DNA of 64,000 nucleotides from Pseudooceanicola marinus (GTDB lineage: Bacteria; Pseudomonadota; Alphaproteobacteria; Rhodobacterales; Rhodobacteraceae). The stretch spans positions 186,001 to 250,000 of the forward strand of contig NZ_PGTC01000009.1 of assembly GCF_002786295.1 (NCBI RefSeq), given 5' to 3'. The notes below the pieces were generated by a model that worked only from the letters and a program-made list of their open reading frames with translations, was not told where the DNA came from and did not search any database. Position numbers and translations under genes: made by a program. This document shows, piece after piece, positions 5,573-60,476 of this stretch; within the stretch, counting starts at the first letter, position 1; each line of letters opens with the position of its first letter.

Positions 5573-5684
5573 TCTCGCGGCCCCATCGGTTTGGCAAACG
5601 GGGGCACAGGCGGAAACGCGCAGGGGCACAGCAGGCCGGGCGCACTCCGACACCGGCACACCCCGTCCGGTCGGTCAATATACG

Positions 5685-5879
5685 GGCTGGCAGGTCTCCC
5701 GGCTCACGGCATCCCGGGCACATGGCCCTGCGGTGCTCCGCCTTCCCGGCCCTTGGGCCAGTGGCATCGAAGCACCTTCTCCGTTCACGGTCGCGGGGGC
5801 GGCTGTCTTGACCCGCAATGCCGACAGGCACCGCAGGCTGACCATTCCCTTTTCACCTGTTTACACAGGCACCAACACC
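5685..5879 (-). promoter_or_regulatory. Cobalamin (AdoCbl) riboswitch controlling the DUF1636-cobW-cobN-cobG operon
   Basis: Read on the minus strand, the element has the class landmarks in order: an opening GGTGTTGGTGCC arm, AAAAGGGAATGG, a GCCCCCGCGACCGTGA block matching the usual CCCCCGCAACTGT element, the B12 box GCCACTGG (about 5758-5766), GGGAAGGCGGAG, and the closing GGAGACCTGCC arm (5685-5700). It ends about 110 nt upstream of the DUF1636 start codon. Riboswitches of this class shut down expression when adenosylcobalamin is abundant. cobO lies divergently on the other side and is not covered by it. Confidence 0.93.
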
Positions 5880-5927
5880 GGGCCAGATGGCGCCAAATCC
5901 GCTGACAGGTCAAGCCCGGAGTTTCCA

Positions 5928-53506: not shown

Positions 53507-54565
53507 GTGGAAAACAGTTTCAAGGACCGCTTCACCACCGCCGCCCCCGTGGTTCCGCAGGGCGATGCCTTCTTCCCCTTGCCGGCGCCGGAGACGTCGA
53601 CCGTCTTCGCCTTCCTGCTGGTGCCCGGGTTCACCCTGCTGGCCTTTTCGGCCGCGGTCGAGGCGCTGCGCATCGCCAACCAGCTGTCGCAGCAGCCGCT
53701 GTATCAGTGGCGTGTGCTGTCGGTGGATGGTGAGCCGGTCTATTCCTCCTCCGGCATCCCGATCGGGGTCGAAGGGGCAATCGACAAGCTGCCGCGCGAC
53801 ACGGGCCTTTTCGTCTGTTCCGGCAACCCGGCGGCAGAGGCGATGACGCCGGCCGTGGTGGGCGCGGTGCAGCGCCACCACCGCTTCGGCGGCATGGTGG
53901 GCGGGATCTGCACCGGCGCCGTGGCACTGGCTCGCGCGGGCCTGCTGGGCGACAAGGCCTTCACCCTGCACTGGGAAAACCTGCCCGCCTTCCGCACCCA
54001 TTTCCCCGATCTGCTGCCCAAGGAAACCAAGTACGAGATCGACGGTCGCCTGATGACCTGCGGCGGCGGCTCGGCGGCCATCGACATGATGCTGGACCTG
54101 ATCGGCCGGGACCATGGCGAGGCCTTCGCCGCGATGGTGTCGGAGATGTGCCTGCGAAAGGTGGCCGTGGGCCGCGAGGAAGAGCAGCGCAGCTCGACCT
54201 CTGTGCTGATCCGCACCCGTCACCCGGGCCTGCTGTCGATGGTGGAGCTGATGAAATCCCACCTCGAAGATCCGCTGACCATGGAAGAGCTGGCGCTGAC
54301 CTCGGGCTATTCCCGGCGCCATATCGAGCGGCTGTTCATGTCGGTCTTCGGCAAGACTCCGGGGGAGTTCTACCGCGGGCTGCGACTGGACCACGGGCGG
54401 ATGCTGCTGAGCTCGACCGACCTGGAGCTGATCGACGTGGCGACCGCCTGTGGCTATGGCTCGGTCGGGCATTTCTCGCGCTGCTTCAAGGCGCGTTTCG
54501 GCGTGGCCCCCACGGCCTACAACCGCGCCCTGGGGCGCGCGCGGCGCACGACGCGCCGGGGATGA
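53507..54565 (+). CDS. GlxA-family regulator (DJ-1/PfpI domain plus AraC helix-turn-helix)
   Basis: The 352-residue protein has an N-terminal class I amidotransferase-like domain without amidase function (FLLVPGFTLLAFSAAVEALRI; GGICTGAVALARAGLL, with Cys at the nucleophile elbow) and a C-terminal AraC DNA-binding domain (LTMEELALTSGYSRRHIERLF; YGSVGHFSRCFKARFG). Relatives control glycine betaine, carnitine and arginine metabolism. It starts with GTG at 53507, nine bases after GGAGG. Confidence 0.9.
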   Translation: MENSFKDRFTTAAPVVPQGDAFFPLPAPETSTVFAFLLVPGFTLLAFSAAVEALRIANQLSQQPLYQWRVLSVDGEPVYSSSGIPIGVEGAIDKLPRDTGLFVCSGNPAAEAMTPAVVGAVQRHHRFGGMVGGICTGAVALARAGLLGDKAFTLHWENLPAFRTHFPDLLPKETKYEIDGRLMTCGGGSAAIDMMLDLIGRDHGEAFAAMVSEMCLRKVAVGREEEQRSSTSVLIRTRHPGLLSMVELMKSHLEDPLTMEELALTSGYSRRHIERLFMSVFGKTPGEFYRGLRLDHGRMLLSSTDLELIDVATACGYGSVGHFSRCFKARFGVAPTAYNRALGRARRTTRRG

Positions 54566-54610
54566 CGACGGACGTTCGCCTGTCTGGGAAGCGAGCCTGT
54601 CTCGGCAGAT

Positions 54611-54738
54611 AAAAGGGGGGGGTAGGGCACCGGAGACGGGGGGACATGTCTCCGGTGCCAAGTCCGGGGGCGAGACGAGGAAAAAACACGACCCCAGAAC
54701 CGATGCACTATCTGTACGGGACGAGGACATCGGACGGG
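54611..54738 (-). ncRNA. Candidate stress-induced small RNA
   Basis: A perfect EcfG-type promoter (54744-54768) points leftward into a gap with no gene on that strand. About 110 nt downstream the transcript would form a 12-bp hairpin (54626-54659) with the loop ATGTCCCCCC, then a C-rich run and UUUU. C-rich loops are typical of small RNAs that bind Shine-Dalgarno sequences. No open frame with coding character is present. The U-tract is short and separated from the stem, so the 3' end is uncertain. Only promoter and hairpin are observed; the RNA itself is inferred. Confidence 0.4.
54626..54659. terminator. Perfect hairpin downstream of the GlxA-type gene
   Basis: GGCACCGGAGAC / GTCTCCGGTGCC is a perfect 12-bp stem with a 10-nt loop. 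On the minus strand it is followed by CTACCCCCCCCTTTT. It may end the GlxA-type message and/or the candidate small RNA. Confidence 0.55.
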
Positions 54739-54743
54739 AAGCT

Positions 54744-54768
54744 AACGCGCGGCCCCGGAATGGGTTCC
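54744..54768 (-). promoter_or_regulatory. EcfG-type promoter with no gene behind it
   Basis: On the minus strand, GGAAC (54768-54764), 16 bp, then CGTT (54747-54744). This is exactly the element found before nepR and DUF1328. It begins 9 bp after the stop codon of the amidotransferase gene and points away from it. Confidence 0.7.
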
Positions 54769-54776
54769 AAGAAAAA

Positions 54777-55550
54777 TCAGGATTTCTCGAAAAAAGTTGT
54801 CGGCGCGTCGACAGCGGGCATGCGGTCGACTTCCTGCATCTGCCCAAGGCCCTTCTGACGGGCGCGCGCGGCGGACACGAGGGCGCGGAAAATGCGGCGC
54901 TGGCGGCGGGCGTAGACCAGGTGTTCGGGGTGCCATTGCACACCGATGGCAAAGGGATCCGACAGGCTTTCGAGGGCCTGGGGCATGCCGCCTTGGTCGC
55001 GGGCCGACAGGCGCAGCCCGTCGCCCAGCCGGTTCACCGCCTGGCTGTGCAGGGCATTGACCTTCATCGGTTCGGTGCCGGCCAGGTCGGCCAGGCGGGT
55101 CCCGGGCAGCACCTCGACCTTGCGGCGGGGCAGGATGGTCCGGTAGCGGCGCGAACTGTCGTAGACCTCGAAGGCATCCTGGTGCAGCGTGCCGCCCAGC
55201 ACCACGTTCAGCATCTGGGCGCCGCGGCAGATGCCAAGAACGGGCAGGCCATGGCCACGGGCCTTTTCGATCACCCGCGATTCCATCCGGTCGCGGGCCG
55301 GGTCCAGAGTGACGCCCGCACGGACCTCGCCGCCGTAGAGCATCGGCGCAATGTCATCGCCACCGCCGATGACCACGCCGTCGACCTTGTCCAGATCGAC
55401 CTCATCCTCCCGGATCCAGCGCAGGGCCTTGCCGCCCGCCAGGGCCACCTGAAGGCGGATCAGCGGAAAGATCCGCCAGGCCGAGCGGGCCGAGACGGTG
55501 ACGCCGATCCTCGGGCGCGGGCCATCCCGCTTGCCGAACAGCAGGCTCAT
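54777..55550 (-). CDS. Class I glutamine amidotransferase (gamma-glutamyl hydrolase-like)
   Basis: The 257-residue protein resembles PuuD-type peptidase C26. It has VIGGGDDIAPMLYGG, the nucleophile elbow LGICRGAQMLNV with the catalytic Cys, and the His-x-Glu pair in VQWHPEHLVY. Its start overlaps the stop of the amidoligase gene by ATGA, so the two are coupled. It probably supplies ammonia to, or cleaves the amide product of, the amidoligase. Confidence 0.86.
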   Translation of the reverse strand: MSLLFGKRDGPRPRIGVTVSARSAWRIFPLIRLQVALAGGKALRWIREDEVDLDKVDGVVIGGGDDIAPMLYGGEVRAGVTLDPARDRMESRVIEKARGHGLPVLGICRGAQMLNVVLGGTLHQDAFEVYDSSRRYRTILPRRKVEVLPGTRLADLAGTEPMKVNALHSQAVNRLGDGLRLSARDQGGMPQALESLSDPFAIGVQWHPEHLVYARRQRRIFRALVSAARARQKGLGQMQEVDRMPAVDAPTTFFEKS

Positions 55551-56560
55551 GAACGCAGCGCCTCGGCCAGCTGCCGCAGATCGCCATGGCCGGCGCGGGT
55601 CAGGATGTCTTCCGAGGTCTCGACCCAGCCGTTCAGCTGCAGGCGCAGCCGTTCCATCGGGTCTTGGCGCATCGCCCGCCAACGGGTGCAGAGCGCCTCC
55701 AGCGTGTCGCGATCCTCAGCCAGCCGTTCCACGGCGCACCACAGGGCCCATTCGCCGGCCAGGCTCCAGCTTGGCTCGTCGATACGGCAATCGGGCATAC
55801 GGTAGTGATAGGCGGGCCGGGCCGAGACGGTGCCCCCCGCGCCACGGGCCAGGGCGTCGCGGGTCAGGTCCGGGCACAGGTGGGCGAAGATCGGCAGCAT
55901 GTCGAGCGCATGGTTGCGCGAATGCGTGGCCCCCAGGTAGCTTTCGACCAGGGTATCCAGCCGCTCGGGACAGCCCTGGGCCAGGACATCCAGCAGGCGC
56001 TGCGGGTAGGGATCGACAAAGGGCAGGGCGCGGCGCGACATGTCCAGGTCGTAGGCGTCGCGCAGCAGCGGTTCGGCCATGGCGAAGGCGGTGGTGACGG
56101 ACCAGAGATGCGCGGCCGTGGGCGCGGCGATCTGCACGTTCAGATGCACGCCGAAGCCCAGCAGGATCCCGCCATGGGTGCCGCTGGCTCCGGCGGCGCG
56201 ATAGCGTGCCAGAACCTCGTCCAGCTCGCCCAGCCGGTCGGGCGGAAAAGGGGAGGTGACCAACTCCACCGGCACGACGTTGCGCGCCAGGTCCAGGGCG
56301 GCCCGGCCAAGCGCGGTGTCATCCTGATTGCGATAGGCCGTATCCATGTAGAGCTTGCAGGTGCCGAAGGGCGTGTCCTCGACGCGGTAGTCCTCATCGC
56401 CCTGCGTGACCTCGCGGTCCGTCATTCCGGCCAGGATATCCGCGGCGCGGCCCTCGGTCAGCCCGCCGAATTCCACCTCGACGCCCAGCAGGCGGGTCTC
56501 TCCGTCCTCGTTCTGCGGAGAGGGCAGGGCGGGGATGACGGAGCTGTGGCGCAAGGACAT
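55547..56560 (-). CDS. Putative amidoligase (Amidoligase_2-like, glutamine-synthetase fold)
   Basis: The 337-residue protein has the N-terminal LLGVEVEFGG strand, TCKLYMDTAY (an unusual position for the second metal-site block), ELVTSPF and GGILLGFGVHLNVQI, which together match the predicted COOH-NH2 ligase family of glutamine synthetase fold. Such genes are found paired with a class I amidotransferase, as here. The substrate is unknown. It lies just downstream of the stress sensor kinase on the same strand, but with a 60-bp gap and a G+C hairpin between them. Confidence 0.8.
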   Translation of the reverse strand: MSLRHSSVIPALPSPQNEDGETRLLGVEVEFGGLTEGRAADILAGMTDREVTQGDEDYRVEDTPFGTCKLYMDTAYRNQDDTALGRAALDLARNVVPVELVTSPFPPDRLGELDEVLARYRAAGASGTHGGILLGFGVHLNVQIAAPTAAHLWSVTTAFAMAEPLLRDAYDLDMSRRALPFVDPYPQRLLDVLAQGCPERLDTLVESYLGATHSRNHALDMLPIFAHLCPDLTRDALARGAGGTVSARPAYHYRMPDCRIDEPSWSLAGEWALWCAVERLAEDRDTLEALCTRWRAMRQDPMERLRLQLNGWVETSEDILTRAGHGDLRQLAEALRS

Positions 56561-56620: not shown

Positions 56621-58354
56621 TCAGTAGTCCAGCGGTTCCGGCTGGAAGCTGGCAACTTCGAAGCTGATCGAGGCGCGGTATTCCTTCTCGGTTTCCTTGA
56701 TCTCGATCGAGCTGCCCAGCTGGGTGGCAAAGGCGCGGATCAACTGGTTGCCCAGTCCCGTGCTTTCGCCATCGGTTTCCAGGTGGTGCGCTGCGCCCTT
56801 GGAGTTGACGACGACCAGGCGCGCCCGGTTCCCTTCCTGCACCAGCGTCAGGGTCATCCAGGGCGGACCCTGGTCGCTACCGGTGTATTTCACCCCGTTG
56901 GCCATCAGTTCGGAAGCCAGCAGCGACAGAGGCACGGCCTGGTCAGGGTAGAGGATCACGTCGGCCACGTCGTATTTGACCCGGATCCGGTGCCCGCCCG
57001 AGGCGGAGGCCTGCAGGGTCTGGTTCGCGACTTCGCGCACCAGCTTGCCCACGTTGACCTGACCCTGGCTTTCGACCTGGTGCAGGTTGCGGTGGATCGA
57101 CGCCATGGCGAGCACGCGATCCTGCAACCGGGAAAGGATGGCCTTGGTCTCCGGCGAATGGGCGCGGCGGATGTTCATGTTCATGATCGAGCTGATCAGC
57201 TGAAGATTGTTCTTCACCCGGTGGTGCACTTCCTTCAGCAGCACGTTGCGCTGGCGCACGGCGTTTTCCAGCTCCGCCTGGTCGTGCAGGATCGTTTCGG
57301 CCATGAGGATGAAATCCTCTTCCATGTTCTTCAGCTCATCGGCGGCATAGCGCATCGAGCGTTGGCCCTCGAAGGTGCGCACCCGTTCAAACCGGCGCAT
57401 GCGGCGGCTGAGCTGGCGGATATGGCGGCCGGCCATGCGGTCGATGGCCACCAGCCCGACCACGGCGGAGGCGATCCACATCAGCAGCGGGAAGAGAATG
57501 ACGGGGACCTGGATCTGGTCGCTCATGTTCTCGAAGGAGGGCCAGATGCCCAGGGCGAAGACCTCGTCCTCGACGATCGGGACGACGACATAAAGCTGAT
57601 CGCCTTCGGCGCGGCTCTGCCCGGAGAAGACCATCGGTGCCAGCCGCGACATATCCTCCAGCGAAGAGCGGATCGGCAACAGGCTCTGTGTCCTTTCCCC
57701 GTCCGGCGCGGCGTCCTCGATGCTGCTGGTCAGCACCTCGCCGGACGCATTGAAGGTCATCAGGTAGTCAGGCGCGGCGCCGAAGCTGGGCTGATGTGCC
57801 AGGTTCAGGTTGGCATGGGGCACCGAGATCGCGGTGTAGCCGACATAGGTGCCGTCAATCTCGACCGGATGGGACACGACAAGGACGGAGGTGTCGCTGA
57901 TCGCACCGTGGTTCACCACCATGACGCGAGGGCGCTTTTCACGGATCGCTTCCAGATGCGACGCCCGCTCGGACACGTCCTGACCCACGCCGCGCGAGGA
58001 GCAGCTGACCTGGCCGTCGACCGGGATGAAGGCCGCCAGGCTGAAATCCGGCATGGCGGCGTTAAACTCCTGCATCACCTCGCGGCAGCCCGGCGCGTCA
58101 GGGCCCTGGGTCTGGATCATGCGCGCCAGCGCCGCTGTCGCGCCGAAGGCCTGTTGCAGCACGGCGCGCTCTTCCTCGACGCCCTGCTGGGTCAGCGCCA
58201 GCAGGGACAGTCGTGTGACTTCTTCGGCCTGGGAAGAGACCTGGTTGGTCTGGTAGATCGCGATGGACCCGATGGGGACCAGCGCCAGAGAGAGGACACC
58301 TGCGATCCGGAAGGACAGCGACCGGAACCAGGGCGTATTCGCGCTATGCGGCAT
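56621..58354 (-). CDS. HisKA_2/HWE-type sensor histidine kinase of the general stress response
   Basis: The 577-residue protein has transmembrane helices at about 15-33 and 283-303 flanking a 250-residue periplasmic sensor domain, then a HAMP-like linker, the phosphoacceptor motif EVHHRVKNNLQLI (H378 the likely site) and an ATPase with ASELMANGVKYTG and GLGNQLIRAFATQLG. Kinases of this class phosphorylate PhyR. It follows ecfG with a 15-bp gap, so nepR-ecfG-kinase form one operon. The sensed signal is unknown. Confidence 0.9.
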   Translation of the reverse strand: MPHSANTPWFRSLSFRIAGVLSLALVPIGSIAIYQTNQVSSQAEEVTRLSLLALTQQGVEEERAVLQQAFGATAALARMIQTQGPDAPGCREVMQEFNAAMPDFSLAAFIPVDGQVSCSSRGVGQDVSERASHLEAIREKRPRVMVVNHGAISDTSVLVVSHPVEIDGTYVGYTAISVPHANLNLAHQPSFGAAPDYLMTFNASGEVLTSSIEDAAPDGERTQSLLPIRSSLEDMSRLAPMVFSGQSRAEGDQLYVVVPIVEDEVFALGIWPSFENMSDQIQVPVILFPLLMWIASAVVGLVAIDRMAGRHIRQLSRRMRRFERVRTFEGQRSMRYAADELKNMEEDFILMAETILHDQAELENAVRQRNVLLKEVHHRVKNNLQLISSIMNMNIRRAHSPETKAILSRLQDRVLAMASIHRNLHQVESQGQVNVGKLVREVANQTLQASASGGHRIRVKYDVADVILYPDQAVPLSLLASELMANGVKYTGSDQGPPWMTLTLVQEGNRARLVVVNSKGAAHHLETDGESTGLGNQLIRAFATQLGSSIEIKETEKEYRASISFEVASFQPEPLDY

Positions 58355-58369: not shown

Positions 58370-58981
58370 TCAGCGAGCCGTCATGGGTTTCGACGTCACC
58401 ACGGCCATCGTGGCAGGGTCGGTCAGTTCCAGGGCTTCATTTTCGTTCAGCTTCATCAGTTCGGCCAGCTTGGCGCGGCCACGGTTCGCACGGCTCTTGA
58501 TCGTGCCGACAGCCACACCGCAGGATTCCGCGGCTTCCTCGTAGGAGGCGCCGAGGGCACCGACAAGGACCAGCGCCTCGCGCTGTTCGTCGGGCAGCTG
58601 GTTGAAGGCGGTACGGAAATCGGCCATCGCGAGGCGGCCGTCATGGGCCGGTTTCTCGGACAGGCTTTCGGCAAAGACGCCGTCGACATCCGCCACTTCG
58701 CGGCGCGTCTTGCGCAGCGAGGAGTAATAGGTATTGCGCAGGATGGTAAACAGCCAGGCACGCAGGTTGGTGCCGACCTGGAATTTCTCGATGTTGGTCC
58801 AGGCTTTCACGATCGCGTCCTGAACAAGGTCGTCGGCGGTGGCCGAGTTCCGGGTCAGACCGAGGGCGAAGGCACGCAGCGCGGGCAGGTGATTGACCAG
58901 CTCATCACGCGGGTTGGGGCCGGACAGGCCGCTGGTGTCGTCGCCGGCGCCGCCATTGGCGGAGGTCGCTCGCGTCGTCAT
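58370..58981 (-). CDS. ecfG: ECF sigma factor EcfG of the general stress response
   Basis: The 203-residue ECF15-type sigma factor has region 2 (LRAFALGLTRNSATADDLVQDAIVKAW; LRAWLFTILRNTYYSSLRKTRRE) and region 4 (FNQLPDEQREALVLVGALGASYEEAA; GTIKSRANRGRAKLAELM). It directs RNA polymerase to GGAAC-N16-xGTT promoters. It overlaps nepR by ATGA, giving coupled synthesis of the sigma factor and its anti-sigma. Confidence 0.94.
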   Translation of the reverse strand: MTTRATSANGGAGDDTSGLSGPNPRDELVNHLPALRAFALGLTRNSATADDLVQDAIVKAWTNIEKFQVGTNLRAWLFTILRNTYYSSLRKTRREVADVDGVFAESLSEKPAHDGRLAMADFRTAFNQLPDEQREALVLVGALGASYEEAAESCGVAVGTIKSRANRGRAKLAELMKLNENEALELTDPATMAVVTSKPMTAR

Positions 58982-59154
58982 TCCCGGTGCTCCTCGTTGT
59001 CAGCGGAAGCGCTCTGGGGCTCCTGCTTCTGCAGCTGCTGCAACAGGTCCTTGAACCGGTCGGGGATGTCCTCTTCCAGAGTGGATTGGAACACGCGACG
59101 CAGGTTGTCGTCGATCCCACCGTGTGAGCTTGATTTTGTCTGACCCAATGTCAT
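58978..59154 (-). CDS. nepR: Anti-sigma factor NepR
   Basis: The 58-residue protein carries the NepR core IDDNLRRVFQSTLEEDIPDRFKDLLQQL (quoted in part: DDNLRRVF, IPDRF, LLQQL). It binds EcfG in unstressed cells and is released by phosphorylated PhyR. I use the ATG at 59154. A longer in-frame start at 59202 lies at the -10 of the EcfG promoter and upstream of the expected RNA start, so it cannot be used on that transcript. Confidence 0.9.
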   Translation of the reverse strand: MTLGQTKSSSHGGIDDNLRRVFQSTLEEDIPDRFKDLLQQLQKQEPQSASADNEEHRE

Positions 59155-59193
59155 GTTCCTCTTTCGATAGTCCGAGAAATTCTCATCGCTGGC

Positions 59194-59218
59194 GGAACCC
59201 AACGCGCCATCCGGAGTT
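59194..59218 (+). promoter_or_regulatory. EcfG promoter of phyR
   Basis: GGAAC (59194-59198), 16 bp, AGTT (59215-59218). It lies 33 bp before the phyR ATG and overlaps the nepR promoter on the other strand almost completely. Confidence 0.8.
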
Positions 59219-59225
59219 AGGTTCC
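59201..59225 (-). promoter_or_regulatory. EcfG promoter of the nepR-ecfG-kinase operon
   Basis: On the minus strand, GGAAC (59225-59221), 16 bp, CGTT (59204-59201). The expected RNA start is near 59195, about 40 nt upstream of the nepR ATG at 59154. Confidence 0.85.
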
Positions 59226-59250
59226 TGAAAAATGCAAAAAAGGGGATAAA

Positions 59251-60075
59251 ATGTCAGTCTCTTCCGGCAACGCATCGAACACCGGTGATCTTGCTGCACT
59301 GATCGGTGCGCATCTGCCTTTCCTGCGCCGTTACGCGCGGGCGCTGACGGGGGCGCAGTCCAGCGGTGACGCCTATGCGGCCGCGACGTTGGAGGCGATC
59401 CTCCAGGACCGGTCGGTCTTCGAAGGGGGCATTGGCGAGAAAGTTGCCCTTTTCAAGGTGTTCCATACGATCTGGGCCAGCTCCGGGGCCCCCGTTTCCA
59501 TCGAGGCTTCGGGGCTTGAGGCGCAGGCGCAGAGGCACATGGCAAAGCTCAGCCCGAACACGCGCGAGGCGCTGCTGCTGCACACCATCGAAGATTTCAA
59601 CGTAAGCGAGGTGGCCAGCGTTATGGGAACCGACGAATCCGAGGTCGAGACCCTTCTCGATACCGCCCGCCAGGAGATGGCCGACGCAGTCTCCGGCCGG
59701 GTCATGATCATCGAGGACGAGGCGATCATCGCCATGGACCTGGAGGCCCTGGTGGCCGAAATGGGTCACAAGATCACCGGCGTGGCACGCACCCACGGTG
59801 AGGCGGTGGATCTGGCCAAGGCGGAAACGCCGGACCTGATCATGGCGGACATCCAACTGGCCGACAACTCCAGCGGCATCGACGCGGTGAACGAGATCCT
59901 GGGCGAGCTGGGCGACCGTCCGGTGATCTTCATCACGGCCTTCCCCGAACGCCTGCTGACCGGCGATCGTCCCGAACCCGCCTTCCTGATCTCCAAGCCC
60001 TACCGCGAAGACCAGGTTCGCTCGGCTGTCAGCCAGGCGATGTTCTTCGCCTCCACCGAGACGCTGAAAACCTGA
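59251..60075 (+). CDS. phyR: PhyR, anti-anti-sigma response regulator
   Basis: The 274-residue protein has an N-terminal sigma-like (EcfG-mimicking) domain (about 1-140; FLRRYARALTGAQSSGDAYAA and LSPNTREALLLHTIEDFNVSEVA) and a C-terminal receiver with acidic pocket IIEDE and phosphoacceptor D200 in MADIQLADNSSG. Phosphorylated PhyR sequesters NepR and frees EcfG. It is divergent from nepR-ecfG, completing the partner-switch module. Confidence 0.95.
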   Translation: MSVSSGNASNTGDLAALIGAHLPFLRRYARALTGAQSSGDAYAAATLEAILQDRSVFEGGIGEKVALFKVFHTIWASSGAPVSIEASGLEAQAQRHMAKLSPNTREALLLHTIEDFNVSEVASVMGTDESEVETLLDTARQEMADAVSGRVMIIEDEAIIAMDLEALVAEMGHKITGVARTHGEAVDLAKAETPDLIMADIQLADNSSGIDAVNEILGELGDRPVIFITAFPERLLTGDRPEPAFLISKPYREDQVRSAVSQAMFFASTETLKT

Positions 60076-60451: not shown

Positions 60452-60476
60452 AACGCCGCACACGGGGGGTGGTTCC
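60452..60476 (-). promoter_or_regulatory. EcfG promoter of the DUF1328 gene
   Basis: On the minus strand, GGAAC (60476-60472), 16 bp, CGTT (60455-60452). It lies about 60 bp upstream of the start codon, with no other promoter-like sequence evident. Confidence 0.82.

Follow-up and report, generated by a model that had tools for sequence, protein, structure and literature searches.

A segment at the end of the general stress block of Pseudooceanicola marinus probably encodes a conserved noncoding small RNA of about 127 nucleotides, here called the first-type RNA, which would be driven by EcfG, resemble GsrN of Caulobacter crescentus, and pair with G-rich sites in mRNAs. The segment lies in a 64,000-nucleotide stretch of one contig (genome G000), referred to as the window. 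Comparison within the genus established the conservation of the element, the covariation of its stems, the fixed place of its promoter box, its linkage to ecfG, and the lack of a conserved reading frame. The element is very probably a real conserved noncoding RNA under EcfG control. We regard it as a new family of an already known, GsrN-like kind. In the full-text literature, a coverage that mostly leaves out subscription journals, we found no description of an EcfG-linked small RNA or C-rich-loop RNA in the Rhodobacteraceae or Rhodobacterales or of a small RNA in Pseudooceanicola. The idea of an EcfG-controlled riboregulator, as represented by GsrN, is thereby extended to the Rhodobacterales. 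Together with a second RNA type described below, the result comprises two RNA families supported by covariation, whose limits are sharp and testable.

Genomic locus and promoter

On the minus strand, reading toward the RNA, lie a nepR-like gene (58978..59202, start uncertain), the gene for an EcfG-type sigma factor (58370..58981), a HisKA_2/HWE histidine kinase gene (56621..58354), an amidoligase gene (Amidoligase_2; 55547..56560), and a class-I amidotransferase gene of the peptidase C26 family (54777..55550, in an open frame that extends to 55682). A phyR-like gene (59251..60075) is divergent, on the plus strand; this gene and the nepR-like gene were named by place and translation only. Since the five minus-strand genes lie upstream of the RNA on its own strand, the RNA closes the general stress block. 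On its other side, a GlxA-type gene (DJ-1/PfpI and AraC-type domains) on the opposite strand ends at 54565. The contigs G000:C8 and G000:C9 start with near-identical sequence (L010 and L013; 406-430 in each), which is probably a repeat where the assembly broke.

Inspection of the sequence located an EcfG-type promoter, GGAACCCATTCCGGGGCCGCGCGTT, with the pattern GGAAC-N16-CGTT, at 54744-54768 on the minus strand, 8 bases past the amidotransferase stop codon (54777-54779). A perfect match to this pattern had been reported in a preliminary description of the window, and both its letters and its position were confirmed. Transcription would start near 54737, and the predicted RNA of about 127 nt (54611..54737, minus strand) has both of its ends inferred. 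The covariance model R1 matches positions 54616-54743 (G000:C9:240616-240743, 101.9 bits, E 2.5e-25), a copy that was itself among the sequences used to build the model.

The exact EcfG motif was found three times in the window, compared with 0.30 expected, and the two further boxes (59201-59225 and 60452-60476) both lie inside the general stress block. Genome-wide, 41 matches were found, compared with 32 for the reversed pattern, so that most exact matches may be due to chance; the motif count was dropped as stand-alone evidence because it is too near this reversed control. The folded strand at 54600-54738 was more stable than shuffled sequences (z -4.25; 0 of 200 shuffles as low). The element is raised above chance by its conservation in 9 of the 22 genus genomes, its covarying stems, and the EcfG box that precedes it.

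Predicted structure and covariation

The first-type RNA has three predicted stem-loops, all on the minus strand, of which the preliminary description had covered only the last. Stem-loop 1 (54700..54733; CCGAUG.../...GCAUCGG) has the stem consensus CCGAUGY/GCAUCGG, and its loop holds UGUCCC and CCCC in seven of the nine genomes that carry the RNA. Neither motif occurs in stem-loop 1 of the window's copy, where the longest C-run is three. Stem-loop 2 (54663..54698) is the weakest of the three helices, with 88.9% of cells paired; its loop is UACCUCGU in six of nine carriers and CCUCGU in the window's copy. The loop 1 motifs are absent only from the window's copy and G009, and both of these also lack the loop 2 motif. 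Stem-loop 3 (54626..54659) is a terminator-like, perfect 12-bp hairpin with the 10-nt loop AUGUCCCCCC, and all nine carriers have a run of at least five C in this loop. The tail that follows, CUA-C8-U4 (54611..54625), contains eight C (54615-54622) and UUUU (54611-54614). This perfect hairpin with its C-rich loop, C-run, and UUUU is exactly where it had been reported earlier.

In G004, the U-run directly follows the terminator-like hairpin. The U-run of the window's copy is separated from the hairpin by eight C and may therefore terminate poorly. A C-run in place of a U-run after the last hairpin was seen at 54615-54622 of the window and at L190, L194, L195, and L196, and such runs are common to several first- and second-type RNAs. 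A run of this kind could be a further pairing site or reflect another mode of termination.

The covariance analysis of the hairpin that had been proposed at the outset was carried out over all three stems, which show compensatory changes. The covariation score of the nine sequences was 0.315, compared with 0.160 in shuffles, and none of 500 shuffles scored as high; sliding the stem partners by 1 to 3 columns destroyed the signal. Over the nine sequences, 96.3% of cells pair, and two-sided changes were found in 9 of 24 pairs (3.4 in shuffles), counted, as for the second type, in an alignment fitted to the RNA's own model. The number of further pair types was less striking (20 compared with 16.8, with 9 of 500 shuffles reaching 20). 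Stem 1 is nearly invariant (five of its seven pairs never vary), so that its support comes mainly from being kept. In the predicted ensemble, the loop motifs are for the most part single-stranded, although UGUCCC of loop 1 is so in only about half of it.

Compensatory stem changes are not what would be expected if the element encoded a small protein, a reading that we consider extremely improbable. An ATG in stem 1 does open a frame in several carriers, but in G004 and G015 TAA comes immediately after it, in G018 and G021 the frame is 18 codons long, and G002 has GTG with a stop after five codons.

Distribution of the first-type RNA

The conservation search called for in the preliminary description was performed with model R1, which is a covariance model of nine sequences with the promoter left out. 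Among 22 Pseudooceanicola genomes, R1 detected the RNA in nine (E 3e-25 or better). These are its own training sequences found again, and the independent part of the result is the absence of the RNA elsewhere. The same scan gave one extra chance match in the window's own genome (a tRNA-like gene and terminator, judged by eye). Comparison thus supports what had been described as an orphan EcfG promoter followed by a C-rich-loop RNA of about 130 nt; the RNA is conserved and structured, with a predicted length of about 127 nt.

A close amidotransferase (at least 60% identity) is present in 18 of the 22 genomes. In all eight carriers that could be read together with this gene, the RNA lies directly behind it; the ninth carrier, G015, is split over contigs, and its RNA is on a separate contig. 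The DNA behind the close amidotransferase was readable in 17 genomes, eight with the RNA and nine without it. Relatives that keep the flanking gene and lose the RNA had been named beforehand as evidence against a stress RNA, and these nine count in that direction; in them, however, ecfG is distant from the amidotransferase gene, which counts in its favor.

Outside the genus, we found no convincing copy in the sampled genomes. The family scan (394 genomes of 393 genera) returned only the window's own genome and two chance matches, and the class scan (385 genomes) returned only the own genome and three chance matches; both scans were filtered more strictly and may have overlooked copies that have diverged. 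Comparison of the window with Rfam 15 gave no match at the gathering score except a cobalamin riboswitch elsewhere in the window (5672-5891, minus strand, 85.8 bits).

Weak model matches were rejected on reading their letters. These were L079 (a tRNA-like gene and terminator, by eye), L080, and L081; L126, L118, L169, and L185; L144 (twice), L159, L163, L156, L150, and L208-L211; and L212, L213, L215, L216, and L247-L249. When thirteen weak matches were rechecked, including that of L200 and L214, one box was seen, a loose GGAAT...GGTT at L169, where a lone hairpin had been matched. At L156, the weak match has an exact GGAAC-N16-CGTT some tens of bases upstream, which was judged to be due to chance.

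Promoter conservation and linkage to ecfG

Among the eight carriers with complete upstream DNA, seven have GGAAC-N16/17-CGTT directly before the RNA, and the box of the eighth, G021, is degenerate (GAAAC-N16-AGTT). Only the CGTT half of the box falls inside the contig of G015. The letters between the box halves differ widely among carriers, and the box therefore looks kept by selection.

This constancy of place bears on whether the element is only the terminator and 3' UTR of the operon formed by the kinase, amidoligase, and amidotransferase genes, or an RNA processed out of that operon, with the box a chance or minor feature. Such an origin would fit an RNA that immediately follows the operon, lies on its strand, and has a terminator-like hairpin at its end, as well as a box motif that is common by chance and is not clear in G021. 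It would not readily account for a box at the same place in seven of eight carriers despite the differing letters between its halves, or for the two conserved stem-loops that precede the terminator, loop 1 being among the best-kept parts of the RNA. We consider this origin unlikely and favor a separate EcfG-driven RNA.

The order phyR-like gene, ecfG, kinase gene, and then RNA is kept in all seven carrier loci read at length, and the core of the RNA lies about 3.6 kb beyond ecfG in these seven; in some of them, the amidoligase or amidotransferase frame was overlooked or called wrongly by the crude gene caller. The first-type RNA would thus be inherited together with the ecfG block, as its last part. 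The next gene after the RNA varies (names assigned by eye): it is of the GlxA type only in G000 and G009, resembles an AMP-binding acyl-CoA synthetase in G004, G019, and G015, is Rieske-like and on the RNA's own strand in G018, and is yet another gene in the remaining loci. Since this neighbor differs among carriers, GlxA is disfavored as a general antisense target. The preliminary description had proposed antisense action on the 3' end of the GlxA-type gene; the RNA and this gene do converge in the window, and read-through past a weak terminator could reach the gene. The RNA nevertheless stops about 45 bp short of the stop codon of the GlxA-type gene and is kept beside other genes where GlxA is not adjacent, and the antisense proposal, which we regard as very improbable, was abandoned.

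A second RNA type and wider candidates

EcfG was detected in 20 of the 22 genus genomes. All 11 genomes with EcfG but without the first-type RNA carry another RNA, with two stem-loops, near ecfG (L189-L199; for example, L198 11049-11157, plus strand). All 20 genomes with EcfG therefore have one type or the other, and neither RNA was found in the two genomes without detected EcfG, G014 (66% complete) and G020 (95% complete). The second loop of the second type contains CCCCGAUUUACCUC in 4 of 11 and UACC in 10 of 11; CCCC occurs in the first loop in five of the 11.

When the 22 genomes were scanned with the final model of the second type, R3, each of the 11 was detected with an E of at most 5.3e-6. 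G011 was found although it was absent from the R3 training set, which included its near relative G003. In the nine first-type carriers, the best R3 match had an E of 0.013 (G004), and that of G002 had an E of 0.041. The stems of the second type also covary, with 99.5% of cells paired and two-sided changes in 12 of 19 pairs, compared with 5.0 in shuffles; the score cutoff removed L199 from this count (two wrong-strand matches would have entered alongside it), and in L193 the 5' portion is wrongly aligned with the locus's own promoter. One locus analysis excluded L120, L124, and L189-L199 as members of the training set or duplicates of it.

A box of the form GGAAC-N16/17-NGTT accompanies the second-type RNA in 11 of 11 genomes, with CGTT in nine and AGTT in G012 and G010; in G010, it overlaps the start of the model match, and the first hairpin is misaligned there. 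Seven of these RNAs were first noticed by the EcfG box and short motifs and four by a promoter-free model, so that the box is independent evidence only for L189, L191, L192, and L193. The second-type RNAs are not behind the amidotransferase gene and still have the box, which is a further point against the first-type RNA being a 3' UTR of the amidotransferase operon.

The type of RNA follows the ecfG allele: a tree of the 20 EcfG proteins has two groups split by one branch (100/100). The genus holds two separate ecfG alleles, with 80 to 100% and 67 to 74% identity to that of the window, and their surroundings differ. The two alleles may stem from an old divergence or from the block having been exchanged as a whole. 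Both RNA types share control, place, and short C-rich motifs; they may be a single lineage that has diverged or two separate inventions. If both prove to act on the same targets, this would be a case of a regulatory RNA whose sequence and shape are replaced while its regulation and its exposed C-rich motifs persist. More broadly, we tentatively suggest that stress loci of the Rhodobacterales may hold, as a standing component of the module, an EcfG-driven RNA with C-rich loops that diverges quickly and changes with the ecfG allele, with two builds (three or two stem-loops) doing the same job within one genus and with a run of C instead of the U tail, in several copies, possibly giving Hfq independence.

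Across 98 stress loci, 534 EcfG-like sites were found, of which 272 show no obvious reading frame. Downstream of 26 of these 272 lies a hairpin whose loop is C-rich, and downstream of 6 lie two such hairpins; for the reversed pattern, the counts were 3 of 92 and 0 of 92. The 26 sites include known RNAs, and some loci were counted twice (L109/L201, L120/L190, and L124/L193). In two Roseovarius loci, L152 (1118, plus strand) and L158 (about 2090, plus strand), an EcfG-like box precedes a stretch of 76.6% identity with several predicted stem-loops, and L152 has a UGUCCCC loop. This pair is a possible third RNA type and belongs to a small number of these sites that may mark further such RNAs. Candidates at L153, L157, L143, and L121 are unrelated; the last of these, from a Loktanella MAG (R2 E 0.84), has a box and resembles the second type, and it was excluded from all counts.

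Comparison with known RNAs and possible targets

Stress-related RNAs with C-rich (CCUCCUCCC) loops are known from the same order: the CcsR RNAs of Rhodobacter sphaeroides, which are RpoH controlled and occur in several copies. Farther afield, GsrN of C. crescentus is described as a noncoding, SigT-driven RNA of about 100 nt; its main target is katG, with whose G-rich leader it pairs through a C-rich 5' loop, and its proposed relatives typically lie beside ecfG/nepR/phyR (PMC5869019). Compared by these described features, the first-type RNA, with its three stem-loops, is like GsrN in the stress-sigma site of its promoter and the vicinity of ecfG/nepR/phyR, and may also be like it in an exposed C-rich loop and an intrinsic terminator. 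Both a near-consensus EcfG/SigT site upstream and proximity to ecfG/nepR/phyR were found. An exposed C-rich loop in the 5' half, with CCCC in loop 1, was found in seven of nine carriers and not in the window's copy or G009; unlike the 5' loop described for GsrN, the CCCC of the window's copy is in the last loop and the tail. The hairpin of the putative intrinsic terminator is conserved, and its U-run is clean in G004 and broken by C in the window's copy.

The available part of the report on sX13 of Xanthomonas describes a 115-nt RNA with a free 5' end and loops containing CCCC, CCCC, and CCCCC, which represses mRNAs with G4 motifs by pairing (PMC3771888). sX13 (RF02232) and the first-type RNA both have three C-rich stem-loops. 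However, sX13 belongs to another bacterial class, and EcfG control is not a feature described for it in that part of the report (PMC3771888). sX13 was the nearest Rfam family, but its model aligned weakly in two of the nine carrier loci (27.5 and 23.2 bits), the best score (E 0.14-0.26) falling far short of the gathering score of 50 bits, and gave no match in the other seven, including the window's own.

We infer that the first-type RNA is transcribed, depends on EcfG, and pairs with mRNA. Once the general stress response is on, it would be transcribed from its own EcfG promoter, and its three stem-loops would expose C-rich stretches, the last one doubling as the terminator. The loops would then pair with G-rich stretches at or near the ribosome-binding sites of several mRNAs, and this pairing would alter translation or stability in the manner of GsrN and sX13. 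The masking of Shine-Dalgarno sequences, as raised in the preliminary description, is a plausible possibility.

A katG-type peroxidase (PF00141) gave no match in G001, G014, and G021. Since G021 carries the first-type RNA and G001 the second type, katG is not the sole or universal target. phyR was considered as a target and rejected; its duplex energy placed it 35th among the 48 genes of the window, in a ranking limited to crude gene starts and 64 kb of one genome. The start site of phyR (59236-59253 in the window) reads GGGGA in six of seven first-type loci (L200-L206) and AGGU in most of the other loci read (L189-L199).
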